Below, one piece after another: positions 57,504 to 62,506 of a stretch of DNA of 64,000 bases. A model generated the notes under the pieces. That model did not search any database, was not told the DNA's origin, and saw nothing but the letters and a program-made list of their open reading frames with translations. Where the stretch lies: NCBI GenBank assembly GCA_020628425.1, contig JAHDEZ010000006.1, forward strand, positions 1 to 64,000, read 5' to 3'. A program made the position numbers and the translations under genes. The DNA is from Hellea sp. GTDB taxonomy: Bacteria; Pseudomonadota; Alphaproteobacteria; Caulobacterales; Maricaulaceae. Each line of letters starts with the position of its first letter. Position 1 is the first letter of the stretch.

Positions 57504-58088
57504 TTACACTTTGTCGGGCTTGGGGTCAATCCATCCTATGTTGCCGTCCGAGCGTTTAAAAACAACGTTGAGGCGACCATGTTTGGCATTGTTGAAGATA
57601 ACCACGCCAGTATCGGCCAGTCCAAGCTCCAGAGCGGCCATGCCGGGGGTCATAGTTTTTAGACTGCCGGGTTTTTCGGCGATCACAATAGGCTCTGCAG
57701 TCTCAGCAGTCTCATTAAGATCGTCTTCGCTATCCTCATCGGCGATAGGGTTTTCCAATATAAACATGGAAAATGCCTCTTTTTTGGAGGCTGCATTATG
57801 GTCCTTGAGGCGTCGTGAATAACGGCGAAGACGTTTTTCCATATGCTCAAGAGCCTCATCCGCCGCCGCATAGCCGTCATGATTCTGGCCCTGGGCTTCC
57901 ATGGAAGCGCCTGATGGCAAATGAATGGAACAGAGTGTTTTAAATCCGGTGCCCTCGCGACTGACGTAAACCTGTGCGTCGCCTTCGCGGTGTATGTATT
58001 TGTCCATCATCTCTTCTAGTCGGGCTTTTATTCGGTCCTGTAGGGCGGGTGAAACATCTATGCCTTTCGAAGCGATTTGAACTTGCAT
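57504..58088 (-). CDS. hpf: ribosome hibernation promoting factor, long form
   Basis: Long HPF binds the 30S subunit and pairs ribosomes into inactive 100S dimers in slow growth. The 194-residue protein has the N-terminal S30AE fold (MQVQIASKGIDVSPALQDRIKARLEEM, GYAAADEALEHMEKRLRRYSRRL) and the C-terminal dimerisation domain (MTPGMAALELGLADTGVVIFNNA, RSDGNIGWIDPK). It lies between rpoN and ptsN with a small hairpin upstream. Confidence 0.94.
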   Translation of the reverse strand: MQVQIASKGIDVSPALQDRIKARLEEMMDKYIHREGDAQVYVSREGTGFKTLCSIHLPSGASMEAQGQNHDGYAAADEALEHMEKRLRRYSRRLKDHNAASKKEAFSMFILENPIADEDSEDDLNETAETAEPIVIAEKPGSLKTMTPGMAALELGLADTGVVIFNNAKHGRLNVVFKRSDGNIGWIDPKPDKV

Positions 58089-58140
58089 ACGGACATCCTC
58101 GTTTTATTTGTTGTGAATGTTCAGCCTATACCAGAAATAG

Positions 58141-58161
58141 TTTTGAGGCCACCCCTCAAAA
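58141..58161 (-). terminator. hairpin between rpoN and hpf
   Basis: TTTTGAGG/CCTCAAAA with a 5-base loop can form an 8-base stem; on the minus strand it is followed by CTATTTCTGG rather than a clean T run. It may attenuate rpoN read-through into hpf. Confidence 0.35.
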
Positions 58162-58208
58162 GAGAAAAGGTCAGGTGGCGGTTAATTTTTTGCTGTTGAT
58201 GTCAATGC

Positions 58209-59693
58209 TTAACAGGCGTCGTTTTTAAGAATGCGCCGGCGTTCAACGGATGAAGGAATACCCAAAGACTCACGATATTTTGCGACCGTGCGTCGGGCAA
58301 TATCAATGCCCTGAGCACGCAGCATTTTAACCAGCTTGTCGTCGGATTTGACACTCTTTTCGGTTTCTTCGGAAATCAAGATTTTGATTTTGTGGCGAAC
58401 GGCTTCGGCGCTGATAGCTTCGCCGCCGTCCAACGCATTAATACCCGCGGTAAAGAAATATTTGAACTCAAAGACTCCGCGCGGTGTGTTCATGAATTTA
58501 TTGGAAGTGACGCGACTGACCGTGCTTTCGTGCATTTCAATGGCATCGGCGACGGTCTTCAGATTGAGTGGCCGCATTTTATCAACCCCATAGGCAAAGA
58601 AGCCGTCCTGCTGTTTGACGATTTCCGTTGCGACCTTGAGGATTGTCCGGGCGCGTTGATCCAGAGATTTCACCAGCCAACTCGCATTTTGATGGCATTC
58701 GGTCATAAATGTTTTGGTGTCTTCATCAGCATTTGGACCGCATATTTCGGCGAAATAGCGATTATTGACCAATACACGCGGCAGGGTGTCTGCATTTAGC
58801 TCGACGGCCCATCCGCCTTGAGGCGTCTCTCTGATGGTCACATCAGGTTCGATAGCCGCCGCCATTGAGGCACCGAATGCCAGGCCTGGTTTGGGGGACA
58901 ATGTTCTGAGTGTGGTGACCATTATCGTTAATTCGTCTTTGGAGACTTCACAAACATTAGCCAGTTTGGCCAAGTCGTGCTTGGCCAGCATTGTCAAATT
59001 ATCCAACATGGTCAGCATTGGTGTTGTGAGTAGCCCTTTTTCACGAAGTTGCAAAGCGAGGCACTCCTTAAGATCGCGCGCACAAACGCCGGTCGGTTCG
59101 AAGCTTTGAATTTGGGTCAATACGCTTTGGACTCTGTTTTCAGATACACCCAAGCGCTCGGCTGCCTCTTCGACGCTGAGGCGGAGATATCCGTTATCAT
59201 CAACGTGATCTATGAGGTACATTCCGATGAGACGTTCTCGGTCGTCCTTGATTTCGACACCCAGTTGATCGGTCAAATGCTCATTCAGAGTGATCTCGGC
59301 TTCGGTGTTTTCAATCAGATTATATTCACTGCCTCCAGAAAATGTCCCTCCAGAGCCACTTTTGGACCAATCAACAGATCCGCCCACATCGGCGGCACTG
59401 GACTGTTCATGTATGATTTCGGCGGGTGCATCGAGGCTGGTTTCAGCCGCTGTCGGTGCGTCCATGCGGACTTCGGCAAATTCGTCCAGAGCTTCACGTG
59501 CGGCTTGTGCCTCTTCGCGCCGGTTATCATCACCCGTGCCCCGCTCAAGCAGGGGATTACTTTCCAACTGCTCCTCGACATATTCCGCCAATTCCAGATT
59601 GGATAATTGGAGCAATTTAATCGCCTGCTGCAATTGCGGTGTCATGACGAGCGAAGTCGTCTGTTTCTGCTGTAATCTAGGTGCAATCGCCAT
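58209..59693 (-). CDS. rpoN: RNA polymerase sigma-54 factor
   Basis: Sigma-54 directs transcription that needs enhancer-binding ATPases. The ATG at 59693 gives 494 residues starting MAIAPRLQQKQTTSLVMTPQL, the conserved region I. The acidic region II, the core-binding domain, the helix-turn-helix and the RpoN box (ARRTVAKYRESLGIPSS) follow. An ATG 7 codons upstream is possible. No lptB precedes it; instead there is a 450-base intergenic region with a possible leader RNA. Confidence 0.96.
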   Translation of the reverse strand: MAIAPRLQQKQTTSLVMTPQLQQAIKLLQLSNLELAEYVEEQLESNPLLERGTGDDNRREEAQAAREALDEFAEVRMDAPTAAETSLDAPAEIIHEQSSAADVGGSVDWSKSGSGGTFSGGSEYNLIENTEAEITLNEHLTDQLGVEIKDDRERLIGMYLIDHVDDNGYLRLSVEEAAERLGVSENRVQSVLTQIQSFEPTGVCARDLKECLALQLREKGLLTTPMLTMLDNLTMLAKHDLAKLANVCEVSKDELTIMVTTLRTLSPKPGLAFGASMAAAIEPDVTIRETPQGGWAVELNADTLPRVLVNNRYFAEICGPNADEDTKTFMTECHQNASWLVKSLDQRARTILKVATEIVKQQDGFFAYGVDKMRPLNLKTVADAIEMHESTVSRVTSNKFMNTPRGVFEFKYFFTAGINALDGGEAISAEAVRHKIKILISEETEKSVKSDDKLVKMLRAQGIDIARRTVAKYRESLGIPSSVERRRILKNDAC

Positions 59694-59827
59694 AGCTTTG
59701 CGTCCAATCACCATTCAAATTATTGTTTTATTTGAGGTGGGACATAACAGGAAACCTTTAACGTCCGGTTTCGAAAACCGGTGCAGCGGATATTTCTGGC
59801 ATGAGTTTTGCTTTGGCGAAAGTTTGG

Positions 59828-59863
59828 ATAAAACAAAGGCCGCTCGACAGTATCAAGCGGCCT
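59828..59863 (-). terminator. Rho-independent terminator upstream of rpoN
   Basis: On the minus strand an 8-base stem (AGGCCGCT/AGCGGCCT) with an 11-base loop is followed by TTGTTTTAT. Nothing annotated ends here except the candidate RNA described in the adjacent entry. Confidence 0.6.
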
Positions 59864-60045
59864 CGTTTTGAAGTTTGGGTCCGATCAGGCGCAGTGCCTG
59901 ACTTCTCTGTAAGATAATTTAGATACCCAATTCGATTTTTACGAAAGTGCTGATCTAACAGCTTCGGGCGGTCCCCTCAAAATAGATAGACAAACGACAC
60001 CTCCTTTCGATAAACGCGGCTCCACAATGGAACGGCTATGTTGAT
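59832..60045 (-). ncRNA. candidate leader RNA or small RNA upstream of rpoN
   Basis: The 426 bases between msrB and the rpoN region hold no long ORF. A promoter-like element at 60052-60079 and a terminator at 59828-59863 bound a roughly 210-base minus-strand unit. Inside it, CGAAAG and CTTTCG can pair over about 60 bases, enclosing a very strong Shine-Dalgarno (AAAGGAGGTG) and a 12-codon ORF. Smaller hairpins (TCAGGC/GCCTGA at 59885-59901; GCTG/CAGC) follow. No Rfam family is recognised. Confidence 0.35.
59955..59993 (-). CDS. possible 12-residue leader peptide
   Basis: TTG starts 5-7 bases after an almost perfect AAAGGAGGTG site and reads MSIYFEGTARSC before TAG. The strong ribosome binding site would be unexpected by chance. 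The peptide would sit in the loop of a hairpin, as in translational attenuators. Coding status is unproven. Confidence 0.3.
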   Translation of the reverse strand: MSIYFEGTARSC

Positions 60046-60051
60046 AGTTTG

Positions 60052-60079
60052 AATCTAGCAAGAATTAAGCCGCTTTCAA
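60052..60079 (-). promoter_or_regulatory. candidate promoter for the RNA upstream of rpoN
   Basis: On the minus strand TTGAAA and TAGATT are separated by 16 bases. The -10 element overlaps a GANTC site (GATTC), so CcrM methylation could affect it. Confidence 0.4.
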
Positions 60080-60140
60080 GGCCTAAGTTTTATTAAATTT
60101 CAGTGACAGTTAACGGAGCATTTACCATACCCCGTCAAGC

Positions 60141-60653
60141 TTATGTTTCTGCCGGAATGAAATTCAGGGCGACACCGTTATTACAATAACGCAGACCCGT
60201 CGGATGCGGCCCATCATTAAAAACATGTCCCTGATGCCCGCCGCAGCGTATACAGTGATATTCTGTGCGTTTGGCCCAGAGCTTATTGTCGTCCTTTGTG
60301 CCAACGGCACCCTGAACGACGGTAAAGAAGCTCGGCCAGCCTGTACCAGAATCGTATTTCATATCGGAGGTAAACAGCTCAAGCCCGCAACCAGCGCAGA
60401 CAAAACTGCCCGCACGGTATTCTTTATCCAGAGGCGAAGTACCGGCCCGTTCGGTGCCTTCCTTGCGCAAGACATAAAATTCCATATCCGTCAGGCGCTC
60501 TTTCCATTCGCTTTCTGAAATATTGGCCCATTCTGAATCAGACATGGCAGTCTCCTTGCTGGCATTAACATCAGGCGTCTGCGCTTTTGACTGCGCACAG
60601 GCGGATAGACTAGCGGCACCAATTGCCAAAGTAAATTCACGTCGTCCAATCAT
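60141..60653 (-). CDS. msrB: peptide methionine-(R)-S-oxide reductase MsrB, exported
   Basis: MsrB repairs methionine-R-sulfoxide. The 170-residue protein has a twin-arginine signal with a lipobox (GRREFTLAIGAASLSAC), so it acts in the envelope. Zinc-binding CAGC and CIRC pairs, the substrate motif GTGWPSF and the catalytic cysteine in LRYCNNGVAL are all present. It stands alone between ubiA and the rpoN region. Confidence 0.93.
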   Translation of the reverse strand: MIGRREFTLAIGAASLSACAQSKAQTPDVNASKETAMSDSEWANISESEWKERLTDMEFYVLRKEGTERAGTSPLDKEYRAGSFVCAGCGLELFTSDMKYDSGTGWPSFFTVVQGAVGTKDDNKLWAKRTEYHCIRCGGHQGHVFNDGPHPTGLRYCNNGVALNFIPAET

Positions 60654-60738
60654 AAGGCTCTCCTTTATTCTGGATACGCTGAATATGGGGGATCTGGATT
60701 AACAGTGCCAGTGACAAAGTCTCACGAAGGTGTGAGGT

Positions 60739-61722
60739 TTAATCAATGATGTTCAGTAAGTCACTTAACGGAATCCATCCAATAGAAACAACGATTAACA
60801 ATCCGGTCCAAAAATTACTCTTGAACAAACGTAATGCTCCCGAACTATCATTCGGGTCCAGCTTCCAGACCTGCCATGCGAGATGACCGCCCGCAAGAAG
60901 CATAACAGGCAAAAATAGAAAGAAAAATACATCAATCCACGGTTCAAAGAAGTCATCCGTACCTGTTTCGAAATACAATTCATGACTGAATGCTGCAAAA
61001 AGCAAAAATATCATCAGCATATAGCTCATGCCAATTCCCAATCGAATATGTTTCCCAAATCGTCTCGCCGTTGACTTAATCCCTACAAAGGCATCATCCT
61101 CGATATCCTGACAGGCGTAGATGGTGTCATAGCCAACCGTCCAGAATATGAGTCCGATATAAAGCAAAACAGACGCCGGGCTGAGCTCGCCCGTTTTAGC
61201 CGCATAAGCCACAAGTGCTGCCCAGTTAAATGTCAGTCCTAGCCAGAGCTGCGGCCACCAGGTTATTCGCTTCATAAAAGGATAGCCGGCCACGAGCGGG
61301 ATCGAACACAGCGCAATTATCTGCGCCAGTCGCGGCAGACATAATAATATGCCCAGCCCCACCAGACATTGCGCCAGCAACCAGATCCAGGCCTGTTTGA
61401 CACTTATGGTCCCTGCCGGAATGGGACGTAGGGCCGTCCGCTCAACCTGTGCGTCCAGATCACGGTCAACAATGTCATTATAGGTACAACCGGCCCCACG
61501 CATGGCGATGGCCCCGATGAAAATAAGTAAGGCCCATTTCAGATCGCTCCAATTCAGACCGTGAGACAATCCGGCAAAGGCGAGCGCTATCCAGCCGGGC
61601 AGGGTGAGCAACCAATATCCGATGGGACGGTCCAGCCGGGAGAGCTGCAAATACGGGATCCAGCCCGCCGGCATGCGGTAGACCCAATGGCCGCTCTCAG
61701 CATCTTGAATGGTTTGTGTCAT
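60739..61722 (-). CDS. ubiA: 4-hydroxybenzoate polyprenyltransferase UbiA
   Basis: UbiA prenylates 4-hydroxybenzoate in ubiquinone synthesis. The 327-residue membrane protein has the two Mg-binding Asp-rich motifs, NDIVDRDLDAQVERT and YACQDIEDDAFVGIKST, and about eight helices. The N-terminus (WIPYLQLSRLDRPIGYWL) is characteristic. It is divergent from rsmE across 52 bases. Confidence 0.95.
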   Translation of the reverse strand: MTQTIQDAESGHWVYRMPAGWIPYLQLSRLDRPIGYWLLTLPGWIALAFAGLSHGLNWSDLKWALLIFIGAIAMRGAGCTYNDIVDRDLDAQVERTALRPIPAGTISVKQAWIWLLAQCLVGLGILLCLPRLAQIIALCSIPLVAGYPFMKRITWWPQLWLGLTFNWAALVAYAAKTGELSPASVLLYIGLIFWTVGYDTIYACQDIEDDAFVGIKSTARRFGKHIRLGIGMSYMLMIFLLFAAFSHELYFETGTDDFFEPWIDVFFFLFLPVMLLAGGHLAWQVWKLDPNDSSGALRLFKSNFWTGLLIVVSIGWIPLSDLLNIID

Positions 61723-61774
61723 GAGATCTTCTTATTCTCCTTCGCTTTTTTAGCAAGACGGGTTAAGTAAAACC

Positions 61775-62506
61775 ATGAGAGAAAATTACACACTCACCCG
61801 AATATATATGGATGCGGCGTTACAGGCTGGTGCCCGGTTTGAACTGCCCAAGGCGCAGGCCCATTATCTGACCAATGTTCTGAGGCTTGAGGTCACGGAT
61901 GAACTTCGCGTGTTTAACGGCAATGACGGAGAATGGCGGGCGCGCGTCAGCGATGTGTCCCGCAAAAAAACCGTCATATACATTGTCGATCAATTGCGGG
62001 CGCCTCAAAGCTGCCCGGATATCTGGCTGTGCTTTGCGCCGGTCAGAAAACATCGCAACGCCTTTATTCTGGAAAAGGCGACAGAGCTGGGTGTATCGCT
62101 CATGCAACCTGTCGTGACTGAGCGTACCCAACATGCCAAGCTGCGTCTGGATAAAATGCAAAGCCAGATCATAGAGGCCGCCGAACAGACGGAACGGCTT
62201 GACCTGCCGACGCTCAAAGAAACTGTCAATCTGGATCAGATGCTGCATAACTGGCCAGATAAGCGCACACTGATTTTTGCCGACGAAGGCGAGGACGCCG
62301 AACCCGTCATGAACGTCCTCAAAAAACTCAAAGGCCCGGCGGCGCTATTGATCGGTCCCGAAGGCGGCTTTACAGACAGAGAACGCAGTCATTTGCGTGA
62401 GCAAAAATTCGTCAAGTCTGTGTCGCTCGGCCCACGTATCCTGCGCGCCGACACGGCCGCCTTGTCACTCCTCACTCTCTGGCAGGCCATGCAGGGTGAT
62501 TGGTAG
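61775..62506 (+). CDS. rsmE: 16S rRNA m3U1498 methyltransferase RsmE
   Basis: RsmE methylates U1498 of 16S rRNA. The 243-residue SPOUT protein has an N-terminal PUA-like part (HYLTNVLRLEVTDEL, FNGNDGEW) and the trefoil knot with LLIGPEGGFTDRE and LGPRILRADTAAL. It is followed 13 bases later by the membrane-protein gene. Confidence 0.94.
   Translation: MRENYTLTRIYMDAALQAGARFELPKAQAHYLTNVLRLEVTDELRVFNGNDGEWRARVSDVSRKKTVIYIVDQLRAPQSCPDIWLCFAPVRKHRNAFILEKATELGVSLMQPVVTERTQHAKLRLDKMQSQIIEAAEQTERLDLPTLKETVNLDQMLHNWPDKRTLIFADEGEDAEPVMNVLKKLKGPAALLIGPEGGFTDRERSHLREQKFVKSVSLGPRILRADTAALSLLTLWQAMQGDW

Follow-up and report, generated by a model that had tools for sequence, protein, structure and literature searches.

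The small RNAs (sRNAs) closest to the one described here are those of the CrfA and alphaR8 kinds. In PMC12559287, CrfA of Caulobacter crescentus is described as a sponge sRNA whose G/A-rich stem loop captures the sequence UUUCCUCCCU of SisA-D, and the alphaR8 sRNAs (SisA-D and MmgR) are described as alphaproteobacterial RNAs with a Rho-independent terminator. The DNA analyzed here, which we call the window, is a 64,000-nucleotide stretch from Hellea sp. Its minus strand has, between msrB (SelR domain, 9e-43) and rpoN (sigma-54 domains), a unit that by sequence comparison is a conserved RNA gene. (The five nearest named relatives of this rpoN, 77 to 82% identical, are from Hellea or uncultured Caulobacterales MAGs.) The best reading of the unit is an undescribed, structured small RNA of ~215 bases, of a family absent from Rfam whose carriers belong to seven genera of the window's family.

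Nowhere in the window does a match reach the gathering score of an Rfam family. The best weak Rfam hit, to RcsR1 (RF02552), is 21.7 bits over positions 59910 to 59833 against a cut-off of 60 bits, and this assignment was rejected, as was 6S RNA (RF00013), to which the RNA has no match. The genome has a 6S candidate on another contig (L059, G000:C15:3093-3253), which at 44 bits is just under the cut-off of 46.4. We found no description of the RNA in the open-access literature on sRNAs of the host genera, rpoN-linked sRNAs, and structured or anti-Shine-Dalgarno RNAs, a scope outside which most subscription papers fall, and no sRNA study of this bacterial group was found in the open-access literature. 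The features of the locus are as follows.

59829 to 60045, minus strand: the RNA; the modelled region is 60037 to 59829, with a 5' end put near 60045 by inference from the promoter
60085 to 60101, minus strand: AT-rich block GAAATTTAATAAAACTT just upstream of the -35 element, where a near-palindromic form, GAAATTTCATAAAATTTC, recurs in several genera
60052 to 60079, minus strand: putative promoter within GCTAGATT, -35 TTGAAA (60079-60074) and -10 TAGATT (60057-60052), 9 of 12 matches
60016 to 60036, minus strand: 5' hairpin P1 (60036-60029 with 60023-60016), 7 pairs, 3 of them double-changed, 100% of cells paired
59942 to 60009, minus strand: closing stem P2 around the ORF, CGAAAG (60009-60004) with CTTTCG (59947-59942), 97.1% paired
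59999 to 60008, minus strand: Shine-Dalgarno-like GAAAGGAGGT, with the invariant core GGAGGT at 60004-59999
59955 to 59993, minus strand: 12-codon ORF with a TTG start and a TAG stop, not evolving as coding sequence
59966 to 59976, minus strand: hairpin P4 (59976-59974 with 59968-59966), 3 invariant G-C pairs, loop in the pseudoknot
59969 to 59971, minus strand: 5' side of the predicted pseudoknot (loop of P4, ORF codons 8 and 9), covarying with 59883-59881
59949 to 59962, minus strand: hairpin P5 (59962-59959 with 59952-59949), 100% paired, one pair double-changed, loop holding the ORF stop codon
59866 to 59982, minus strand: tentative helix UUUUG (59982-59978) with CAAAA (59870-59866), 96% paired, no double-changed pair
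59876 to 59929, minus strand: long-range stem P6 (59929-59925 with 59880-59876), 95.7% paired, mostly invariant
59886 to 59900, minus strand: hairpin P7 (59900-59896 with 59890-59886), 5 of 5 pairs double-changed, 93.1% paired
59881 to 59883, minus strand: 3' side of the predicted pseudoknot, directly before the ACCC strand of P6, partner of 59971-59969
59836 to 59864, minus strand: intrinsic terminator with a conserved ATACTGT apex, 13 pairs, 10 of them double-changed

Strong blastn matches (E below 1e-25) are present in 17 of 61 genomes, the window's own counted, and covariance model R1 was built from 15 of those 17, leaving out one with a run of N (L005) and a truncated one (L016). When the family was searched with R1, the RNA was found in 42 of 137 genomes at 88 to 231 bits, and these carriers belong to 7 of the 19 genera; a 43rd family genome, with a sole hit of 24 bits, was excluded from the count. 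The RNA of the window scores 231 bits with R1 and 219 bits with R2, a second model made from all 42 sequences, and both models include the window sequence. Each carrier has one full match, and one genome (G014) has further weak hits of 32 and 20 bits. An order-wide search (398 genomes, E 0.01) gave some match in 32 genomes, of which 24 score at least 172 bits and are all of the same family as the window, while the other 8 score at most 28 bits. In the class-wide search (385 genomes, among them that of the window), three other genomes have hits, of at most 31.5 bits, and outside the window's family no score in the searches of order and class is above 32 bits. Searches of more than 40 genomes use stricter filters, with which weak matches can be lost. 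R2 was run with laxer filters on 38 genomes with no hit (20 of the family and 18 others) and one positive control; the control was found, and the only other hits were two of up to 24.9 bits in a single genome. Because matches outside the family are only weak, the RNA appears to be clade-specific, as far as these searches reach.

The weak hits outside the clade were discarded as candidate relatives: the best 4 of 7 alignments share mainly the terminator or the 5' hairpin, and the GGAGGT stretch is not visible in the aligned parts of these best 4 of 7 loci. A degenerate GGAGGT-TTG-TATCT core pattern (at most 2 mismatches) has one hit in each of 8 carriers and none in 8 non-carriers, and the reversed pattern, used as a control, has 2 hits, in 2 of the 16 genomes. 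No diverged copy downstream of msrB was seen by eye at 16 loci of genomes that lack the RNA, most of which have msrB in another setting (5 of the 16 also show ubiA). One member of the window's genus (G004, locus L111), whose genome is 90% complete, has no RNA hit and an apparent other gene start after msrB; therefore, the RNA may be dispensable. With its retention in 42 of 137 family genomes, a covarying structure, and no Rfam family, the unit matches the undescribed small RNA that the preliminary description had suspected.

Covariation was scored on alignment A2, which has 42 sequences and 51 counted pairs, pseudoknot included, and which leans toward the R1 structure because it was fitted to R1. 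In A2, 97.0% of cells are paired, compared with 87.0 ± 0.4% in shuffles and 41 to 53% in slid versions. Changes on both sides are seen in 23 of the 51 pairs, and none of 500 shuffles is as high on any of five measures. Most of this covariation comes from the terminator, from P1 at the 5' end, and from the hairpin within the 3' domain. Few covarying pairs underlie the core fold, since variation is almost absent from P4, P6, and much of P2; the three G-C pairs of P4, being invariant, give no covariation for or against it. The CGAAAG/CTTTCG pairing pointed out earlier is present and kept in relatives, with one pair changed on both sides and one pair broken in 4 sequences. The stems and the Shine-Dalgarno sequence, whose fate in relatives had been made a touchstone of the original proposal, are both conserved. 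The UUUUG/CAAAA helix remains tentative, and a predicted AGGUG/UAUCU helix was dropped, four of its five pairs never varying (one an invariant G-U) and the fifth being broken in 11 sequences. The folding energy of 60045 to 59830 is -69.1 kcal/mol, which 1 of 200 shuffles equals (z -2.84), and the 107-base 5' part alone is no stabler than its shuffles (z -0.41). Four copies (L073, L098, L102, and L105) have ~30 extra bases inserted between the core and P6.

The 42-sequence alignment also reveals, by covariation, a predicted pseudoknot between the core and the 3' domain. In a covariation scan of all column pairs, columns 68-230 and 69-229 rank high, and both lie outside the predicted structure; they join the loop of the GGG...CCC hairpin inside the 12-codon ORF to bases 88 nucleotides downstream. 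Because the 3' side directly precedes the ACCC strand of P6, the pseudoknot helix can stack on P6. Pair 1 is C-G in 35 sequences and U-A in 6, never broken, with one gap; pair 2 is U-A in 29 and C-G in 8, with one broken and 4 gaps; and pair 3 is weak, with 21 paired, 19 unpaired, and 2 gaps. Double-change cells in the pseudoknot number 20; shuffles give 6.4 ± 1.7, and slid versions no more than 6. Taken alone, the pseudoknot also exceeds all 500 shuffles in covariation score and percentage paired, and on two of the five measures it is not above them (double-change pairs, 284 of 500; pair types, 500 of 500). On an event tree built from the RNA itself with the pseudoknot columns removed, pair 2 changes at the base of the window's genus, and pair 1 changes twice, once within that genus and once in a subgroup of a different one. 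By our reading of the tree, the changes lie on separate branches.

Upstream of the RNA, the promoter-like pair reported at the outset is present, with the spacing TTGAAA-16-TAGATT, but such motif hits are near chance (6 in positions 58000 to 62000, compared with 4.8 ± 2.3 in shuffled sequence). A comparison across loci is better promoter evidence than motif matches: 38 of 39 loci have a TTG at 48 to 28 bases before the modelled RNA, compared with 28.7% in shuffles. These upstream counts include the window's locus, 3 of the 42 loci having been dropped for too little upstream sequence, and they are not independent, because the loci are related. Between -68 and -42, 24 of 39 loci have the sequence AAATTTNATNAAATTT with at most 3 mismatches, compared with 1.1% in shuffles of the same stretches, and the AT-rich near-palindrome GAAATTTCATAAAATTTC is a candidate UP element or operator, the site of a regulator. 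As had been noted, a GATTC overlaps the -10 element in the window, but GANTC is present at -25 to -5 in only 3 of 39 loci, the window's included, and control of the RNA through GANTC was rejected on this count. The terminator described earlier is likewise present at 59864-59836, in a region where terminator-like hits number 8, compared with 4.6 ± 2.4 in shuffles. Hits of both kinds are thus little above chance, which is what would be expected if the RNA were a nonfunctional, accidental assembly of motifs. Conservation in 42 genomes together with covariation, which we take as already refuting chance, makes the probability of such an accident negligible.

The preliminary description had also suggested that the RNA might attenuate rpoN expression, and the neighboring genes do not support this. 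We surveyed 42 loci, up to ~1.5 kb per side, for matches to the RpoN, MsrB, and UbiA proteins of the window and three neighbor proteins. MsrB is upstream in 34 of the 42 loci, within 181 bases in 29 and at 655 to 885 bases in 5. RpoN is downstream in only 8, which are exactly the 8 loci of the window's genus, and there the rpoN match begins 93 to 222 bases from the RNA end in the same direction. In 21 of the 42 loci a codirectional MarR-family gene follows, in two of them behind a convergent frame with no Pfam match, and a YCII gene is downstream in 3 loci, in two of them ~600 bases away and behind another open frame. Three of the other 10 loci have an identified neighbor, namely an AMP-binding enzyme, MipA, and a pseudouridine synthase that is convergent. 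Four loci have no match to any surveyed neighbor protein. An alternative reading of these data would be that the RNA is a cis-acting leader or attenuator of whatever gene follows it, rpoN in the window, as the same-direction rpoN and MarR genes would allow. We consider this very unlikely, since the RNA is constant while the genes that follow it have no relation to each other from genus to genus and are in some cases convergent, and the terminator stem is 99.1% paired over the 42 sequences. An rpoN leader or transcription attenuator was rejected because the same downstream gene is not found across relatives, and on the comparative evidence the RNA is not an rpoN leader. Because the RNA is unchanged while its neighbors change, its terminator stem is kept, and the TTG of the -35 stretch is retained, it is best regarded as an independent gene. 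Judged on sequence alone, it has what a trans-encoded sRNA has, which is its own promoter, a terminator, and a location independent of any one target gene. A dyad, CCGGTTT-CGA-AAACCGG with 7-base arms, lies at 59765-59781 between the RNA terminator and rpoN, and it may be an operator or form a hairpin in the 5' region of rpoN.

The 12-codon ORF reported earlier is indeed present, TTG-started, at 59993-59955, but it does not behave as a functional peptide would. In the 41 complete sequences (the cut-off L107 was dropped), there is always a TTG followed by 10 or 11 sense codons and a stop, and the start is never ATG or GTG. Parsimony on the midpoint-rooted RNA tree gives 6, 29, and 6 changes at codon positions 1, 2, and 3, which is the opposite of the pattern of change in coding sequence. 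Of the 11 codons that follow the start, 6 have changes at the second base, and 7 have a third base that never changes. Only 3 of the 38 reconstructed codon changes are synonymous and 35 are not (one is to a stop), compared with 23 synonymous ones among the 94 non-stop single changes that are possible. Codon 8, which has the most kinds (6), holds two pseudoknot bases and changes together with its pseudoknot partner. Of the marks of a dual-function sRNA, an ORF with a ribosome binding site is found in all 41 sequences, but codon-wise purifying selection is not. We therefore consider it quite improbable that this is a dual-function or peptide-coding RNA with a 12-residue product, even though the very strong Shine-Dalgarno sequence, its suitable spacing, and the universal TTG and in-frame stop favor that reading; the changes by codon position, the shortage of synonymous changes, the absence of ATG or GTG starts, and the coupling of codon 8 to the pseudoknot all speak against it. 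The ORF is probably not a gene. More generally, a convincing "upstream ORF" can be an effect of RNA structure, in this case with a highly variable codon that covaries with a tertiary-contact partner 88 bases away.

The Shine-Dalgarno sequence itself is as strong as had been claimed: GAAAGGAGGTG at 60008-59998 is an 11-base match to the 16S tail, at -18.5 kcal/mol. None of the window's 70 frames with 150 or more codons has a start that reaches this value (best -15.0, median -5.55), a comparison that took for each frame the best start within its first quarter and in which not all frames need be genes. GGAGGT is invariant in 41 of 41 complete sequences, and the longer stretch is GAAAGGAGGT in 34 and GAGAGGAGGT in 7. 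The spacer from GGAGGT to TTG is 5 bases in 39 sequences, 4 in one, and 6 in one, and its bases change freely (6, 6, 12, and 9 changes at the first four columns). In the 7 GAGAGGAGGT sequences the altered closing-stem pair is G-U in 4 and G-C in 3. In the alignment, the next pair is broken in 4 sequences and gapped in 4. The closing stem thus seems to matter in addition to the 16S match. GGAGGT might also be kept invariant by a bound protein or by a hidden contact within the RNA. The plus strand reads CACCTCCTTTC, as the preliminary description had stated when it called this sequence identical to the anti-Shine-Dalgarno tail of 16S rRNA. The exact tail, GGATCACCTCCTTTC, was found in 3 of 5 relatives and not in the window's own MAG. 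Frames antisense to the RNA vary from species to species, and nothing in these comparisons favors the plus-strand mode of action that the preliminary description had offered as an alternative.

We tentatively favor an independently transcribed, trans-acting structured sRNA that would dock to an anti-Shine-Dalgarno sequence through its GGAGGT module, a reading to which, as a whole, we give somewhat less than even confidence; that the RNA is independent seems much surer than that it docks. The RNA would be transcribed as one unit and would act in trans, offering a GGAGGT-spacer-UUG module to the anti-Shine-Dalgarno sequence. That sequence would belong either to the 30S subunit, as its 16S tail, or to C-rich sRNAs that carry the same motif. 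The knotted core would set the exposure of the ribosome-binding module, and it is unlikely that the peptide itself matters. A further reading, which we regard as unlikely, is a Shine-Dalgarno decoy in which a near-maximal ribosome-binding site would be displayed, with a weak UUG start, on the knotted scaffold. Such an RNA would hold 30S subunits or lower initiation rather than make a peptide, and it would be a lineage-specific regulator of translation initiation.

The main rival to 30S docking is pairing through other segments or protein binding, with GGAGGT a mere part of the fold. Action in trans would then depend on a bound protein or on a different conserved segment, which might be the ATACTGT terminator apex, UUUUGAGGGG, or CCCAAACUU. 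Several segments besides GGAGGT are nearly invariant, and the ATACTGT apex is identical in 33 of 42 sequences while the pair below it flips (G-C in 26 and C-G in 16), both of which fit such a role. The spacer between GGAGGT and TTG, constrained in length and free in sequence, looks more like part of a ribosome-binding signal than a structural element, and we rate pairing through other segments or a protein as rather doubtful but worth keeping in view. A sponge for C-rich anti-Shine-Dalgarno sRNAs, working as CrfA of Caulobacter does when it captures the alphaR8 RNAs SisA-D, has a published precedent in the description of CrfA given in PMC12559287, and GGAGG can pair with the CCUCC of the alphaR8 core. 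By eye, however, the alphaR8 decamer can form no more than 5 adjacent pairs with the RNA, and none of its 17 exact sites in 7 carrier genomes obviously has the layout of an sRNA with a terminator (after one of them, L138, comes a stable hairpin that lacks a T run). A sponge of this kind seems improbable. Because the CrfA-like sponge is unsupported, docking to the 30S subunit is our first choice, at low certainty. If the Shine-Dalgarno module truly binds ribosomes or anti-Shine-Dalgarno sRNAs, the RNA would be a natural, testable case of regulation by ribosome-binding-site mimicry.

In comparison with known systems, the likeness to RcsR1 is confined to the terminator, and the opposite strand over the same terminator also matches that family (17.3 bits). 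With 6S RNA the window's RNA shares its nature as a structured, stand-alone RNA of similar length. Like CrfA, which probably comes from the same order, it is a stand-alone sRNA and has a G/A-rich segment; in CrfA that segment pairs with anti-Shine-Dalgarno-like sRNAs (PMC12559287). It differs in that the core of CrfA's partners, UUUCCUCCCU, gives the window's RNA just those 5 adjacent pairs, a comparison in which CrfA is represented by its published description. The alphaR8 sRNAs carry the C-rich, anti-Shine-Dalgarno side of such a pairing, whereas the window's RNA carries the G-rich, Shine-Dalgarno side. We file it as a new family among structured small RNAs of a known kind, and it adds to them a structured RNA family with covarying stems and a predicted pseudoknot in 42 genomes.
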